Part shown: piece after piece, positions 7,641 through 15,410 of the stretch
Layout of the letters: the number at the start of each line of letters is the position of its first letter
How positions within the stretch are numbered: position 1 is the stretch's first letter
Source of the DNA: Sacculina carcini
Taxonomy: Eukaryota > Arthropoda > Thecostraca > Sacculinidae
DNA length: 64,000 nt
Assembly (NCBI GenBank): GCA_916048095.2
Contig: OU696588.1
Coordinates: forward strand, 7,246,501 to 7,310,500
Direction of reading: 5' to 3'
The notes under the pieces: generated by a model
The model's database searches: none
What the model was told of the DNA's origin: nothing
Seen by the model: only the letters and a program-made list of their open reading frames with translations
Made by a program: the position numbers and the translations under genes

Positions 7641-7842
7641 ATATCACACATTACCACCATATCACACATTAACACCATATCACACATTACCACCATATCA
7701 CACATTAACACCATATCACACATTACCACCATATCACACATTAACACCATATCACACATTAACACCATATCACACATTAACACCATATCACAAATTACCA
7801 CCACATCACAAGTATACACCATATCACACATTAACGCACAAT
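7641..7842. repeat. 18-bp minisatellite
   Basis: About eleven tandem copies of ATATCACACATTAMCACC. In the first six units the variable base alternates C, A, C, A, C, A, suggesting growth as a 36-bp dimer. The last three units are diverged. Because 18 is a multiple of three, both strands stay open in several frames and give repetitive peptides that are not genes. Confidence 0.9.
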
Positions 7843-8085: not shown

Positions 8086-8115
8086 TTGGGGTTCTCAACC
8101 TTTTGATGGTTCCAT
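8086..8115. mobile_element. hAT-like MITE, left piece (split by Gypsy-2)
   Basis: The stretch GGTTCTCAACCTTTTGATGG matches the terminus of the 317-bp MITE at 57096-57412 (read in reverse). The rest of this copy lies at 15020-15410, on the far side of Gypsy-2. The outermost bases have drifted from CAGTG to TTGGG. Confidence 0.75.
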
Positions 8116-8993
8116 TGTTGGTAGCCATTGCAACCAGTAACAAGTAGTCAGAAGCTGTCTTGTTATAGCACAAGCACAGAAAATGTGGCACGAGTTCACT
8201 GTGTATTTTCAGCACAGCATATAGGTTGTCAAACAAGATTCTGCGTTGACACAACACCGTGCGATTAATGCAGCGCGGGAACAGAAGCGGTGCGTGAAGA
8301 GTCTCGCTGCTGAATGACCAGTCTGCACGAGCGATATTGAATAATGTTCTGCACTCGCCTATATCGCCCGCTCATTCAGACCGATATCAAATATCGCTGA
8401 GCTTACCGAAAGTTGCCCCCGCAATAGCACGAGCTTGCACTTGTTGTGGTGGCAGAGCGTGTGTGTGTGTAGAGCGTATGTAGGTGCAGAGCGTGCTGCG
8501 CGTGGCTAAACTCAAAAGGGTATCCTGGAGCGCAACACGTACATCGAACAGAAGGATACATACTAATATATACAGTTACACACGCACAAACACATATATA
8601 TATATACATGCATATATGTATATATACATATGTATATATATATATATATATATATATTTATACACAATACATTACAGTACATACACATATAGGTTGATGT
8701 ACATAAAACGAATAAGCGCTAACCACCAATGATACAAGTGGACCATTATGCACAAAATATTAGCACTAGCACAAGACAGGACTATGTTTGCAATACTGTG
8801 TGTGTTCTCCTAACACATGATGCAATGCATTACACATGTTTATCGCAAACATTACTCGGAAAATAGATGCTACAACATTTGTCATCAATTTTAAACAATT
8901 ACATTTCGTAACGTGCACATGTGAAACAAAACGTTGCGGCAGAATCAGCAAACATTATACATTCACAATTATAGCGAATGCATGACGCCTACA
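8116..8993 (-). repeat. Gypsy-2 3' LTR (878 bp)
   Basis: In sense it starts TGTAGGCGTCATGC and ends ATGGCTACCAACA. It contains a (TA)n/(ATGT)n microsatellite at about 8595-8660. It matches the 5' LTR on both sides of that microsatellite. Confidence 0.9.
8595..8660. repeat. (TA)n-rich microsatellite in Gypsy-2 3' LTR
   Basis: Imperfect ATATATGTATATAC tract passing into pure (TA)n. The corresponding tract in the 5' LTR is longer and is where the foreign ~1 kb insertion begins. Confidence 0.85.
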
Positions 8994-9783
8994 GGGCCCT
9001 CCCCCTAGAAGTGTCGAGAAGAAATGAGACACGGCGATAACGCACAGGTAGACGCACGGCACGACCGCTCCTAGTACGCAAAATGGACGGGGGATTTGTG
9101 TATGTGTTGGTGTGTGTAGCTGTGTTCTCATGACCTGACCTGATAGGGTCCGCAGCAGTTGTCGGTGTCCGTGGCACTGTTGTTGGAGGTACGATAAGTT
9201 CAGTACTGCCACCGTCGTCTCGATCATCTGGCGGGTCAGGGGTTGAAGCTGGTGAGTTTTGCTGCACATCGTCGACGAAGGCTGGTTTGCAGCGATCGAT
9301 GGAGACAACTTCCCGCTCGCTGTTAGTCCGGATCGTGATCAGTTTGTCCGTACGATGAATGACGGGAAACGCGCCGTCATACGGACAGTAGAGCGGGTAT
9401 CTGTGTTTGTCCCGAAGGACAAACACGTGTGTTGACGTCTTCAGTGCTGCCGGAACGAACGATAGCTGGTTGACTGCTCGTGGAAGCCGTGGCCGGAGTT
9501 TGTGCCTGTGATTGCGCGGCGATGAAGCGAATGAAGCCGGATCACTGACTGTCTGCGTTGAGTCACTGATCAACTCGCCAGGAAGTCGCAGGGACGCTCC
9601 GTAGACCAGTTCGGCTGAGCACGCGCCGACATCAGTTTTGTGTGTCGACCGTATGCCCAAAAAGGTCATGGGCAAAACATCCATCCATGATGTGTGTTCA
9701 GCAGCGCGCAAGCTTGCTTTGAGCTGCCGATGGAAGCGTTCAGCCATGCCGTTGCTGCTTGGGTGATAACTGGTGGTGCGCAT
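8989..9783 (-). pseudogene. Gypsy-2 integrase C-terminal part (after a frameshift)
   Basis: A 264-codon open frame that continues integrase after a frame break near 9800. It starts in the third part of the catalytic core (TTSYHPSSNGMAERFHRQLKA, with the final catalytic glutamate). It then gives the conserved LGIRSTHKTDVGACSAELVYG segment and a DNA-binding C-terminal region rich in prolines. It ends at the 3' LTR boundary. In an intact element this would be fused to the preceding 837-codon pol frame; here a small indel separates them, so the element is probably inactive unless that indel is an assembly error. Confidence 0.85.
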
Positions 9784-9816
9784 ACGTTGGCAGCCGAGCA
9801 GTCGAGTGAGTTCGGA

Positions 9817-12330
9817 CTACAGAGACGATTCAAATTGTGCCCCGCGATCTGTTGTGATGGTCGTGGGCACTCCAAAGCGTGAGACCGACTGATGGAGAAA
9901 CGCGCGTGCAACTGTCACTGCGCGAATAACCGGCAGAGGAATGGCTTCTGGCCAGCGCGAAAATCGGTCCACGCATGTGAGGTGGTATGACTGACCTTGT
10001 GACGGTGGCAGTGGTCCGACGATGTCCACGTGCACGTGACTGAAGCGCTCTCCAGGTGGCTGAAATGGTTGCACCGCGCTTTTCGTGTGACGGGTAACTT
10101 TCGCTCGTTGACACTGCATGCATGTTCGGGTCCACTTGCGCACGTCGCGGTCCATGTTCGGCCGCACGAAGCGTGACGAGACAAGCTTCACAGTTGCATC
10201 GATGCCTGGATGTGAAAGGTTGTGCAGAGAAGACGTGTACGGCCGGCGTAATGCTGTTGGAAGCACTGGGCGAGGTCGGCCGGTAGACTCGTCGCACAAA
10301 ACGTTTGCTTCGCCGAACATGACATCGCGTAGCTTCAGCGATGACGTCGAGTTGCGAAGCGTCTCCAACGAAGTGTCTTCTCGTTGCGCCGCAGCTAGGG
10401 AGGCGTAATCGTCGACTTGGCACGACAGAACAGTCAATACAGCTGTTATTCTGGAAAGTGCATCAGCCACTGTGTTTTTGCTGCCAGGCAGGTGTCGGAT
10501 CTCAGACACAAACTGGCTGATGAAATCCAAATGTTGTAGCTCGCGAGGCGAATATTTCTCCGACATGGAAGGCAAAGCATGCACGAGAGGGCGATGATCG
10601 GTGAACACGATGACGTCACGGCCTTCGATCGTGTAGCGGAAGTGGCGAACTGCCGAGTACACTCCGAGCAGCTCTCTGCCGAATGTGCTGTATCGCCGTT
10701 CAGTAGGCGTCACAGTCTTGAAAAAGTAGCTGAGGGGCGGCCACAGACCATTGGTGTGCTGTTGTAATACTCCGCCAACACCAGTGTCCGACGCGTCGAC
10801 CAGGATGCTCAAGGGTGCACCGGGGATTTGGTGTGCCAGCATACTGCTCTCTGCCAGGGCTGCTTTGGCTGCATGGAAAGTGTCGATGCTCTGTTGCGTC
10901 CATGCTACCGGAGCTTTGGACCGTTTGGCGCGGTGTGTCAGAAGAGCGTGCAGATGTTGTAATACAGCAGCTGCGTTGGGTATAAAGCGGTGGTAATACG
11001 CCACCATACCCAAAAATCGACGAAGCTGACACTGGCTGCTCGGCTGTGGAAATTCTTTGATGGCGCGAATCTTGTCATCGAGTGGGAAAATGCCGCCGGA
11101 TGTCACGCGGTGTCCGAGAAAGGAGACAGAGTCGCGGCCAAACACGCACTTGCTCTTGTTGATGACTACTCCGTAGGACTGCAGTCTCTGGAAGACGGCG
11201 CGAAGGTGTCTTAGGAGTTCGTCTTTGCTTGCTGATGCCACCAAAATATCGTCGAGGCATGCGAAGCAGCCGTCAGCACCGCGCAGAACTTCGTCGATGA
11301 AGCGCTGGAACGTGGAACCGGCGTTGCGCAGACCGAATGGCATTCGCACCATCTCGTACAGACCAAACGGCGTGGCGATGGCTTTCTTTACGACGTCTGC
11401 GGACTCCACGGAAATTTGGTGGTATGCACGGACCAGGTCCACTGTGGAGAAGATGTTGCAGCCGCTGAGTTTCGTCGAAAAGTCTCGAATGTACGGAAGT
11501 GGGTACAGGTCCGGAAGCGTTTGTGCGTTGAGTGCCCGGTAGTCACCACACGGTCTCCATTGGCCGGGTGATTTCTTGGGCATCATGTGGAGAAACGATG
11601 ACCAAGCACTCTTGGACGGCCGAATGATACCCAAGCGCAGCATGTTGTCAAATTCGTGATTGGCGATGTTGGCTCCGTCTGGGGCTAAACGCCGAGGGCG
11701 AATGTGGATCGGCGGGCCCTTGGTCACGATGTGGTGAGTCACATTATGCTTGACTGCACCAGTTGTGAGTTCTTGCGTGATTTCGGGAAACGACGCAACT
11801 AGGCACTCGTACGGGTCGGTGGGGTCATTGACCAATCGTATGCCAATCGAGGCTATGCGTGAAGCTGAACCCTTAGCACACACGTCTACTTTATGTAGCA
11901 GCTGCTTTTTGGCGACGTCGACGACCACTTGATTGGCTGCGAGGAAATCAGTGCCGAGGATGGGCATGCTAAAGTCGGCCACGAGCACGCACCAGACCGA
12001 AGTTCTTGAGCTGAAAGCAATTCTGGTCTTGTATGTCCCGAAGACTGCAATTTTTGAACCGTTGGCAGCTTGAAGCATCTGATCTTGTCTGTGCGCTTGC
12101 AGCTTGATGTGTCTCGGCACGAAGCTCCTGGGAACCACACTGACTTGCGCGCCCGTATCAATCAAGAACTGCTGACCGGATGTTTCGTCTTCGATGAAGA
12201 GGAGAGATGCGCTTATACGTGAGCCACCAGTGCACTGCACGATGTGTTGGTGGCTTGCTAGTTTAAATGCCACGAGCAAGGAGGCGTGCAGCGACGCGCT
12301 GATGAGCCGAACCGGGCATGGTAAAAGCAC
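9817..12330 (-). CDS. pol: Gypsy-2 pol (protease, RT, RNase H, integrase start)
   Basis: An 837-codon open frame read after the gag -1 frameshift. Domains in order: aspartic protease ([12 protein letters not shown], about residue 56); reverse transcriptase with motif [13 protein letters not shown], motif [14 protein letters not shown] and motif C CLDDILVA; RNase H ([15 protein letters not shown], closing with NTVADALSR); then integrase with an HHCC zinc finger (LSHPGID ... CMQCQ) and the first two catalytic aspartates (VDIVGPLP and TTDRGAQF). It would make and insert the cDNA copy. Its start is not an ATG; it overlaps gag by about 70 bases in the -1 frame, so translation most likely depends on frameshifting at 12261-12267. 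The frame stops inside the integrase core. Confidence 0.92.
12209..12267 (-). promoter_or_regulatory. -1 ribosomal frameshift signal (gag to pol)
   Basis: On the minus strand the heptamer T TTA AAC (plus 12261-12267) lies in the gag zero frame directly before the gag stop TAG (12258-12260). After a 5-nt spacer comes AGCCACCA, perfectly complementary to TGGTGGCT 18 nt further on, an 8-bp stem-loop. Slippage by one base joins gag to the pol frame exactly. The heptamer, spacer and stem match the known layout of -1 frameshift sites; activity is inferred. Confidence 0.8.
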
Positions 12331-13130
12331 AGGCGCGATTGATTCGGACTGCGGCGCGCTGGTGAGCTGTCTCGTGAGCGAGCATCCGGTGATGGAGAAC
12401 GGCGTCGGGTTCTGTCGCGTGAGTTGCTCCTGTATCGTGTCGGAAAAGGTGCGTAATTTGACATCGTCGCGTTGTCTCGGGCTGTCATTGTCGATTCAAG
12501 GCGTTTGTGCGAATGTTCGAGCTGCTCAATTTTGGCGAGCAGGATAGCCATGTTGTCCTCTGTTGGTGGCGGCGGCGAAGAAACAGCTGTCACTGCTTGG
12601 GCCGCTTGTGTAGCCTCCAGGTAGCGGTCGTCGACGTTGGCGAACTCGTCGAGGTGAGCAGATGTTGGCAGAAGAGAGAGTGCTGCTCGTGTCCCTTGTG
12701 GCAGTCGCTGTAGAAACAGCGTGCGCAGCAAGCCGGTGTCTTCTGGCGTGTCGCCTGCCGCTGCCAGCTCGTTGCACATGGAGCGCAGTAGAGCCGATGG
12801 CCGTTGGTCGCATAGCTGTTGTCGTGAAAGCAGCGCTTCCAGGCGAGACGTCCGCGATTGTGCCAGACGAGAATGCAGGGTGGTACTCAACGCAGCGAAC
12901 GATCTTGATGTGCAAATGACATCCTTTACTTGAGCTGCCACTGTGATGGGAAGATTTGCCACAATCATCTTGAAACGGGTCTCGTCAGAGAAAATCCCAG
13001 CGATGTCAAATGCACATTCGACTTGAATGAGCCACATATCTGGCTCCTCGGCTGAGAAAGGCGGTAGGCGGGATGTAGCCATTGGACGCACTTCAGAAGT
13101 AGACACTTGCACAGCTGCGTCAGGAGACAT
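12258..13130 (-). CDS. gag: Gypsy-2 gag (CsRn1 type)
   Basis: A 290-residue capsid/nucleocapsid protein read on the minus strand. I place the start at ATG 13130 (MSPDAAVQV), because upstream in-frame codons lie in the LTR and primer-binding site. The middle ([22 protein letters not shown] through [10 protein letters not shown]) has the pattern of a Gypsy capsid core. The C-terminus is arginine/serine rich and ends with [18 protein letters not shown], the unusual CHCC knuckle typical of the CsRn1 group instead of the usual CCHC. The frame ends at TAG 12258 immediately after the slippery heptamer. It is intact. Confidence 0.88.
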
Positions 13131-13155
13131 GGTACTCTCGAAAGTGTCCGCAAGA

Positions 13156-13167
13156 CGGGAGTCACCA
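13156..13167 (-). promoter_or_regulatory. Gypsy-2 primer-binding site
   Basis: In sense TGGTGACTCCCG, one base inside the 5' LTR. It is a tRNA-Trp-type site with one change in the C run. Confidence 0.6.
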
Positions 13168-13644
13168 CTGTTGGTAGCCATTGCAACCAGTAACAAGTAG
13201 ACAGAAGCTGTCTTGTTATAGCACAAGCACAGAAAATGTGGCACGAGTTCACTGTGTTTTTTCAGCATAGTCTAGGTTGTCAAACAAGATTCAGCGTTGA
13301 CACAACACCGTGCGATTAGTGCAGCGCGGGAGCAGAAGCGGTGCGTGAAGAATCTCACTGCTGAATGACCAGTCTGCCGAGCGATATCGAATAATGTTCT
13401 GCACTCGCCTATATCGCCCGCTCATTCAGACCAATATCAAATATCGCTGAGCTTACCGAAAGTTGCCCCCGGCAATAGCACGAACTTGCACTCGTTGTGG
13501 TGGCAGAGCGTGTGTGTGTGTAGAGCTTGCGTAGGTGCAGAGCGTTCTGCGCGTGGCTAAACTCAAAGGGGTATCCTGGAGCGCAACACGTACATCGAAC
13601 AGAAGGATACATACTAATATATACAGTTACACACGCACACACAC

Positions 13645-13676
13645 ATATATGTATACATGTATATATGTATATATAC

Positions 13677-13722
<46 letters not shown>
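13645..13722. repeat. (TA)n microsatellite in Gypsy-2 5' LTR
   Basis: Mixed ATGTATAC tract passing into about 20 pure TA units at the left edge of the foreign insertion. Confidence 0.9.
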
Positions 13723-14010
13723 ATATGAAGAAAAAAAAGAGAACACAAATGACTGCCACTCTTTGTCAAACGTTTCGGTCTTGAGACCTTCGTCAGTGAC
13801 TATAAACAGATCAGTCTGTTTACTGATCTGTTTGTTGGTCTTTGTTGGTTTGTTGGTCTTGAGACCTTCGTCAGTGACAGATCAGTCTGTTTACTGATCT
13901 GTTTATAGTGTAAACAGACTGATCTGTCACTGACGAAGGTCTCAAGACCGAAACGTTTGACAAAGAGTGGCAGTCATTTGTGTTTTCTTTTCTTTCTTCA
14001 TATATGTCGA
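13723..14010. repeat. Long inverted repeat (foldback) with repeated CTGACGA...GAAACG motif
   Basis: The arms at about 13724-13800 and 13929-14006 are near-perfect reverse complements (ACACAAATGACTGCCACTC in one arm, GAGTGGCAGTCATTTGTGT in the other). The centre holds several copies of the palindromic word AACAGATCAGT/ACTGATCTGTT and a third, partial copy of the arm end (13854-13885). The arm ends encode CTGACGA, a GGTC-TCAA-GACC hairpin and GAAACG. It resembles a foldback element or the ends of a larger element. Confidence 0.75.
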
Positions 14011-14019
14011 AAACTTCAA

Positions 14020-14737
14020 ATATATCTATATATATAAAACAGATCCTCTGTGTGTCTGTCTGTGTGTTTGTCTGTCCCACCCTCCTTGGTCCATTTTCTG
14101 CAAGCTGTTTTTCAATAACTTTTTAACCTACACGCTAACAATTTATACCATCACGTTGGAAATTTTCTTGTCTACACTTTTGGCTAAATTTTACATTTGA
14201 AAATTAAAACAAAAAAAATTATAGCGGTGAAAAGACAAAATGAACCCTGAAATATGCGAAAATTTTGGTCATTGTTCCGCCATCTACTCCTCATAAACCA
14301 GCAATGGTACAGCTATACAGATTATACCACTGTGTAGAAAATATTCTGTTCTACTCGATAGGCTATTATTCATATCCGAAAATTATATATAAAATATGTA
14401 AAAATGACAAAATTACAGTCTACATTCACAAATATTTTTAAACTCGACGCGTCCGATTTTCTATACTTTTTTCTCTATTTCTCAAGGCCTGCCTATAGAT
14501 GCTACAAGGTGAAATTCAAGATCCTGTGTGTACATTTTTATGAGATTATATTTTTCTTATTTAAATATTTACAAAACTCTTGGTAAGTGGTACTAATATA
14601 TGTTTAACTATGTACTAAATAGCATGGTACAATCCTTTTTTTGATTTGTGTGTGCAAAGTGTAAAAAAACCAAATAAACCAAAAAAAACATTGGTTTTTT
14701 CTAAAAAAAACATGGCTTTTGGTTTTTTTTTTTTAAA
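14020..14737 (+). repeat. Unclassified dispersed repeat F, copy 1
   Basis: From TATATATATAAAACAGATCC through a TGTCTG-rich segment, a GTCCATTTTCTG block and CAATGGTACAGCTATA, this matches in inverted orientation the repeat at 39143-39865. No coding capacity. The last ~130 bases are A- and T-homopolymer rich (GGTTTTTT/AAAAAACC). It is part of the insertion in the Gypsy-2 5' LTR. Confidence 0.65.
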
Positions 14738-15019
14738 AACGAATAAGCGCTAACCACCAATGATACAAGTGGACCATTATGCACAAAATATTAGCACTAG
14801 CACAAGACAAGACTATGTTTGCAATGCTGTGTGTTCTCCTAACACATGATGCGATACATTACACATGTTCATCGCAAGCATTACTCGGAAAATACATGCT
14901 ACATTTGTCATCAATTTTAAACAATTACATTTCGTAACATGCACATGTGAAACAAAAAGTTGCGACAGAATCAGCAAACAATATACATTCACAATTAAAG
15001 CGAATGCATGACGCCTGCA

Positions 15020-15410
15020 CCATACCACCAATGTATTGTCCAATATGGTTCAATACCCGCGACTTACTTGACTGTTCAAATAATTATCACCAATCCTATC
15101 ATTATTTGCCAGTTTGTCTTCCAGATCCACGAATATTTCAATCGCTTGAATTTACTGTAATTTAGATACGGATTACTAGAAAATAGCCAATGATAAATTT
15201 GTTATTATATTATTATTATAATATTAATATATTATTAATATTATAATATTATTATATTATTATTTAGTTTATTTTAATAATTTTGTTATTTTCAATATAA
15301 TTATAGCTATTGCTAATTTATAGCGGTATCCAGAAATTTAATCATATACCTCCGACCTTTGATTCCCATTCCACCAAGGGGTATGGATACTCCCGGCTAA
15401 TAACTAATGG
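15020..15410. mobile_element. hAT-like MITE, right piece
   Basis: It matches the 317-bp MITE at 57096-57412 read in reverse: TTACTTGACTGTTCA, CCAGATCCACGA, ATTTCAATCGCTTGAATTTACTGTA and, at the end, AAGGGGTATGGATACTCCCGG. It has an extra AT-only palindromic block (15201-15266). With 8086-8115 it forms one copy cut by Gypsy-2. Confidence 0.8.
15201..15266. repeat. AT-only palindromic tract
   Basis: TTATTATATTATTATTATAATATT and its mirror form a self-complementary stretch, probably a slipped (TTA)n expansion within the MITE. Confidence 0.7.

Follow-up and report, generated by a model that had tools for sequence, protein, structure and literature searches.

The AgCR elements of Anopheles, which belong to the CsRn1 clade, combine a CHCC Gag, a 4-bp target-site duplication, a tRNA-Trp primer, and a gag/pol overlap at -1, and the same report records fused, separate-ORF, and overlapping forms within the clade (PMC2582038). 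Regarding frameshift sites in general, U_UUA_AAC, A_AAA_AAC, and G_GGA_AAC are counted among the heptamers most shifty with mammalian cytoplasmic ribosomes; equine arteritis virus naturally carries G_UU(A) in place of X_XX; and a 2003 survey of LTR retrotransposons, as relayed there, placed pol at -1 in 28 of 51 animal elements, many of them with classical heptamers (PMC5009743).

The element described here lies in a 64,000-nt stretch of the Sacculina carcini genome (hereafter, the window) and shares the CHCC motif, the 4-bp duplication, the tRNA-Trp primer, and the -1 overlap with the AgCR elements; fused members of the type were also found in S. carcini. The words slippery, heptamer, and stem-loop do not occur in the main text of the AgCR report (PMC2582038), whereas in this work the heptamer and the hairpin were compared over 17 families. 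With a probability of roughly 0.9, we read the gag-pol junction of this CsRn1-type Ty3/gypsy retrotransposon as a signal for -1 programmed ribosomal frameshifting, and other families of CsRn1-type elements in this genome carry what appear to be equivalent signals. Identical heptamers serve at retroviral and coronaviral -1 sites (PMC5009743); in contrast to those sites, the heptamer of the window family, known here from sequence, abuts the stop codon, and a hairpin alone is supported next to it.

A -1 frameshift signal at a gag-pol junction is a familiar device; it is the site that is new, not the mechanism. Since the mechanism is textbook, a single site of this kind is unsurprising; the signal is genuine and ordinary, and the comparative evidence for it is unusually good. 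The 2003 recoding survey mentioned above is reportedly that of Gao et al. Of greater interest than the lone site is the comparative set, in which several heptamers and hairpins of different sequence stand at similar spacing in one genome beside a fused lineage, allowing one to ask which parts of the signal are fixed, which are replaceable, and how elements leave frameshifting. The set also adds sequence-level support to the earlier report of overlapping and fused CsRn1-type elements (PMC2582038). In the accessible portions of the open-licence literature, including PMC2582038, PMC5009743, PMC8556966, PMC6238403, PMC2871265, and PMC8220671, no description of the heptamer and stem of CsRn1-type elements was found.

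The host element in the window

The features of the element and of its junction are collected in Table 1. The CsRn1-type assignment, already made in the preliminary description (which coined the label 'Gypsy-2'), draws its support from features of the element itself: its Gag carries the CHCC motif, its target duplication measures 4 bp, and its primer site is probably of the tRNA-Trp kind. The Pfam domains of pol follow the order protease, reverse transcriptase, RNase H, and integrase.

Table 1. Coordinates of the CsRn1-type element, its gag-pol junction, and a second element in the window
Feature	Position	Strand	Details	Source
LTR retrotransposon, Ty3/gypsy, CsRn1 type	8116-15019	-	Sacculina carcini, 64,000-nt window	
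Target-site duplication, distal end	8112..8115		4 bp, ATGG on the minus strand	
3' LTR	8116..8993	-	TG...CA	
Remaining pol	8989..9816	-	same frame, beyond the in-frame stop; no Pfam match of its own	
pol	9817..12495	-	-1 frame; protease, reverse transcriptase, RNase H, integrase, down to the in-frame stop	
Stem, 3' arm	12222..12229	-	UGGUGGCU (also written TGGTGGCT)	
Loop	12230..12247	-	18 nt; in RNA folding, a 3-bp CAC/GUG helix forms inside it	
Stem, 5' arm	12248..12255	-	AGCCACCA	
Spacer, heptamer to stem	12256..12260	-	UAGCA, 5 nt	
gag stop	12258..12260	-	UAG, abuts the heptamer; UAA in the second subfamily	
Slippery heptamer	12261..12267	-	U_UUA_AAC (TTTAAAC), gag frame	sequence; kept in 32/33 nearest copies
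CHCC zinc-finger motif of Gag	12276..12329	-	CX2HX9CX3C, near the Gag end	
gag	12258..13181	-	307 codons + stop if the first ATG is the start; DUF7041 inside	Pfam
Primer-binding site region	13153..13167	-	TGGTGAC..., one base past the LTR, within the gag frame	
5' LTR	13169..15019	-	TG...CA, split at about 13712-14735 by another sequence of ~1 kb	
Target-site duplication, proximal end	15020..15023		4 bp, ATGG on the minus strand	
Second CsRn1-type element	pol pieces between 3893 and 7351	+	gag and pol read in a single frame	

The window copy is probably defective because of the in-frame pol stop at about 9817. That it is a decayed relic, with a signal inherited but out of use, is somewhat the likelier state of this copy, given the stop, the divergence of 5-6% between its LTRs (94.9% and 93.8% identity in the two alignable pieces), and the interruption of about 1 kb in the 5' LTR. 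Its gag and junction nevertheless remain open, relatives in the genome with pol frames of 1,120-1,169 aa carry the same signal, and the point concerns this copy, not the nature of the signal. The insert in the 5' LTR contains, by eye, an inverted repeat near 13750-13990 and is perhaps another mobile element.

Regarding the primer, the 5' LTR already contains the first ATG of gag, within its final 13 nt, and the primer-binding site thus lies inside the gag frame (13153-13181, minus strand). A diverged primer site starting TGGTGAC (TGGTGACTCCCG...) was present in 26 of the 30 copies read, the window copy among them, and no primer site was found in three of the 30. In copy L005, TGGTGACCCCGACGTGAT adjoins the LTR and is perfectly complementary, over 18 nt, to the tRNA-Trp-like 3' end present at two other loci, L141 and L142, as if freshly copied from the primer. 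Both loci contain, around position 1500, the 3' half of a tRNA-Trp-like sequence with the CCA encoded, which we take to be tRNA-Trp from the pattern of the anticodon arm; ARAGORN predicted no complete tRNA gene in either of them. These stretches are perhaps tRNA-derived repeats or by-products of retroelements.

The gag-pol junction and its nearest copies

The gag frame ends in TGG CAT TTA AAC TAG, and pol is open in the -1 frame across the junction, from 12495 to 9817. The preliminary description placed the whole cassette within 12209..12267, with U UUA AAC in the gag frame directly before the gag UAG, a 5-nt spacer, a perfect 8-bp stem, an 18-nt loop, and pol in the -1 frame; each of these parts matched the sequence exactly, on the minus strand, with the heptamer at 12267-12261 and the stop at 12260-12258. 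The junction shows the make-up of a -1 frameshift site, namely an in-frame X_XXY_YYZ before the stop, an open reading frame at -1, and a downstream hairpin at a spacer of 5. The arrangement goes beyond chance: this heptamer is the only canonical in-frame one in the 308 codons of gag, the pol frame between 12495 and 9817 has not one among its 893 codons, and a canonical heptamer came to lie against the stop in 114 of 5000 synonymous-codon permutations of gag. The window hairpin was matched in stability by 7 of 300 dinucleotide shuffles when spacers of 3 to 10 nt were allowed, and the wider 104-nt fold alone was unexceptional (z -1.66; 16 of 200 shuffles as good). What gives the case for a signal its weight is how other copies and other families compare, not this wider fold alone.

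In the mechanism that we propose, the majority of ribosomes would read CAU UUA AAC and halt at the next codon, yielding Gag. The hairpin 5 nt downstream would slow ribosomes whose P site holds UUA and whose A site holds AAC, and both tRNAs could sometimes slip back one base together onto UUU AAA. Ribosomes that had slipped would bypass the gag stop and enter pol, producing a minority Gag-Pol fusion; Pol made from the window copy would terminate at the stop in the integrase. The slip, its rate, and the role of the hairpin as stimulator are what we infer from the arrangement of the junction, while the heptamer, the frames, the spacing, and the stem, together with their preservation or equivalent replacement across copies and families, were observed directly.

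The heptamer and stem might instead be coding by-products of a Leu-Asn end of Gag and a conserved start of Pol, with pol made through separate initiation or splicing, an explanation that we consider very improbable. The region does code in one or two frames, the Gag and Pol residues are conserved within families, and 114 of 5000 synonymous-codon permutations of gag also placed a heptamer against the stop. The evidence against it comes from the nearest copies, from the other families, and from the fused lineage.

A 301-base query of the 264-Mb assembly (43 contigs) returned at least 41 matches, one of them short and partial; 40 of 99 candidates were scored, and the copy count is therefore a lower bound. 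Among the 30 loci that were read, the window copy included, 29 kept the heptamer and all 30 had identical stem arms. Adding L061, L065, and L075 gave a set of 33 copies that covers the two closest subfamilies, A and B, again with the window copy included; here U_UUA_AAC was present in 32 and all eight stem pairs were present in 32. The sole heptamer exception, L013, had lost its gag stop as well. The comparison of other copies had been set beforehand as a check on whether heptamer, spacer, and stem persist and co-vary; it bore out the persistence of heptamer and stem (32 of 33 each), and the covariation did not materialize, the stem of the window family being conserved and not covarying.

When one member of each subfamily was compared (L003 for A, L024 for B), no synonymous change was found in the first 15 pol codons counted from the heptamer (first 60 nt: 0 of 20), whereas 117 of 485 codons were changed synonymously beyond the first 15 and each of the next six 60-nt windows held 6-10 synonymous changes out of 20. 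Unchanged synonymous sites over the first 60 nt in two subfamilies argue against mere coding by-products. Nevertheless, the interval 600-659 likewise lacked synonymous changes, and the synonymous-site evidence is by itself modest for this reason. The conservation of the junction can reflect coding constraint and young age, too.

Heptamers and hairpins across families

Five protein searches for CsRn1-type junctions returned 1434, 1556, 433, 334, and 578 first-look candidates, with 150 scored in each, and 80 further junctions, picked for diversity and not at random, were read. Of 142 entries, 138 were mapped; the two elements of the window (W_A and W_plus) stand in the list a second time as L001 and L031 and were counted once. 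Four entries were dropped from the counts: L132, which looks fused yet is a degenerate single copy; L070, whose upstream side has been replaced by a tandem repeat; L064, which missed the junction; and L057, which was unmappable. The remaining material yielded 17 overlapping-frame families (the two nearest subfamilies counted), each built around a representative chosen for its intact junction.

In all 17 representatives, gag and pol overlapped at -1, AAAC occupied the A-site position, and a hairpin began 3-7 nt past the heptamer. Their heptamers were UUUAAAC in four families, GUUAAAC, AAAAAAC, and GGAAAAC in one each, and GGGAAAC in ten. Over the 102 copies of these families, AAAC was found in 95, the family heptamer in 91 (lost in 11), and a strictly canonical heptamer in 79. 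With regard to the persistence of a canonical heptamer wherever the overlap is kept, 15 of the 17 families followed the strict X_XXY_YYZ rule, and GUUAAAC (L071) and GGAAAAC (L103) broke it. The GGAAAAC family, comprising L102-L109 and L131, carried this non-canonical heptamer at the junction in 9 of the 10 copies read, with pol frames of up to 1,156 aa. L071 resembles the site of equine arteritis virus in an unrelated element, a likeness that we take to be convergent. AAAAAAC rests on one of three copies, all of which have short pol frames.

The family heptamer was present in all 46 copies with a pol frame of at least 1,075 aa and in 45 of the 56 others (Fisher p 0.0009), a hand tally for which the 1,075-aa threshold was set after viewing the tables. 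The younger age of the long-pol copies may be part or the whole of the cause of this excess.

The end of Gag varied by family (HLN, SLN, ALN, QKNS, SEN, and GN followed by a longer tail). What persisted was a run that ends in AAAC and is able to slip, together with a similarly spaced hairpin. This, again, is not what coding by-products would lead one to expect, and it favors the frameshift signal.

Regarding the hairpins, which were searched for at spacers of 3 to 10, that of each of the 17 representatives was more stable than the mean of its shuffles; between 1 and 39 of the 300 shuffles did as well, the related families not being independent of one another. Single-family tests were modest in six of the 17 families (25-39 of 300 shuffles as good). 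The ten GGGAAAC families had a constant architecture, with a spacer of 7, a stem of 8, and a loop of 15 that contains the gag stop. Upon alignment of their representatives, 93.8% of cells paired, a value reached by 32 of 500 shuffles, and a slid partner gave at most 56.0%; three pairs were changed on both sides (reached by 26 of 500 shuffles), and the covariation score was reached by 9 of 500. Within this set, two of the eight pairs deviated in L079. In the branch of the window element, the hairpin was kept in L066, L068, and L071 with a shifted register and a bulge, so that column-by-column covariation is not available for the window stem; as there is no simple column count in this branch, per-family hairpin tests were used.

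Pseudoknot stimulators are common, though not universal, at -1 frameshift sites. A more elaborate stimulator, for instance an H-type pseudoknot in which the loop pairs with downstream sequence, seems unlikely here, even though the loops measure 15-18 nt, which is long for a simple hairpin, and a loop-to-downstream complementarity of 5-6 nt is suggestive by eye in several families. In a mixing test of 11 loop/downstream sets, consisting of the ten overlapping GGGAAAC-branch families and the fused window element (the window frameshift family lies outside this set), own pairs averaged -10.59 kcal/mol against -10.54 kcal/mol for mixed pairs, and 9423 of 20,000 permutations were as good. Own loop and downstream sequences therefore paired no better than mixed ones in the GGGAAAC branch, and a pseudoknot is not claimed.

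The fused-frame lineage

The second CsRn1-type element of the window is broken into several frames, and its relatives have open frames of up to 1,335 aa. GGGAAAC is still present in 22 of the 27 copies of the fused lineage, which needs no shift; the reading frame there divides it as GGG AAA C, and action as a slip site is not expected in this phase. The seven outer stem pairs were intact in 12 of these 27 copies versus 35 of 42 copies in the ten overlapping GGGAAAC families (Fisher p 0.001, a value that is too small because the copies are related). In the fused family L076, the heptamer was lost, and no hairpin was found at the junction position (226 of 300 shuffles as good). Such a looser heptamer and stem pattern where gag and pol share one frame argues further against coding by-products, and the GGGAAAC and looser stem of the fused lineage are apparent relics of a frameshift signal. 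Two separate fusion events were considered and not retained, as the plus-strand element of the window and L076 could trace to one; a single fused lineage is claimed.

The CsRn1-type elements of this one genome are somewhat more likely than not to form an evolutionary series of a frameshift signal. AAC and the hairpin position would have stayed fixed while the P-site triplet was switched at least four times among UUU, GUU, AAA, GGA, and GGG, with the stem rebuilt alongside, and one lineage would have abandoned frameshifting through fusion of its frames, the old heptamer and its decaying stem surviving there as a fossil. If true, the series would constitute a natural experiment on the tuning, swapping, and loss of a frameshift signal.

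Downstream of the pol frame of the second element, a tandem array of 18-nt units extends from 7650 to 7811.
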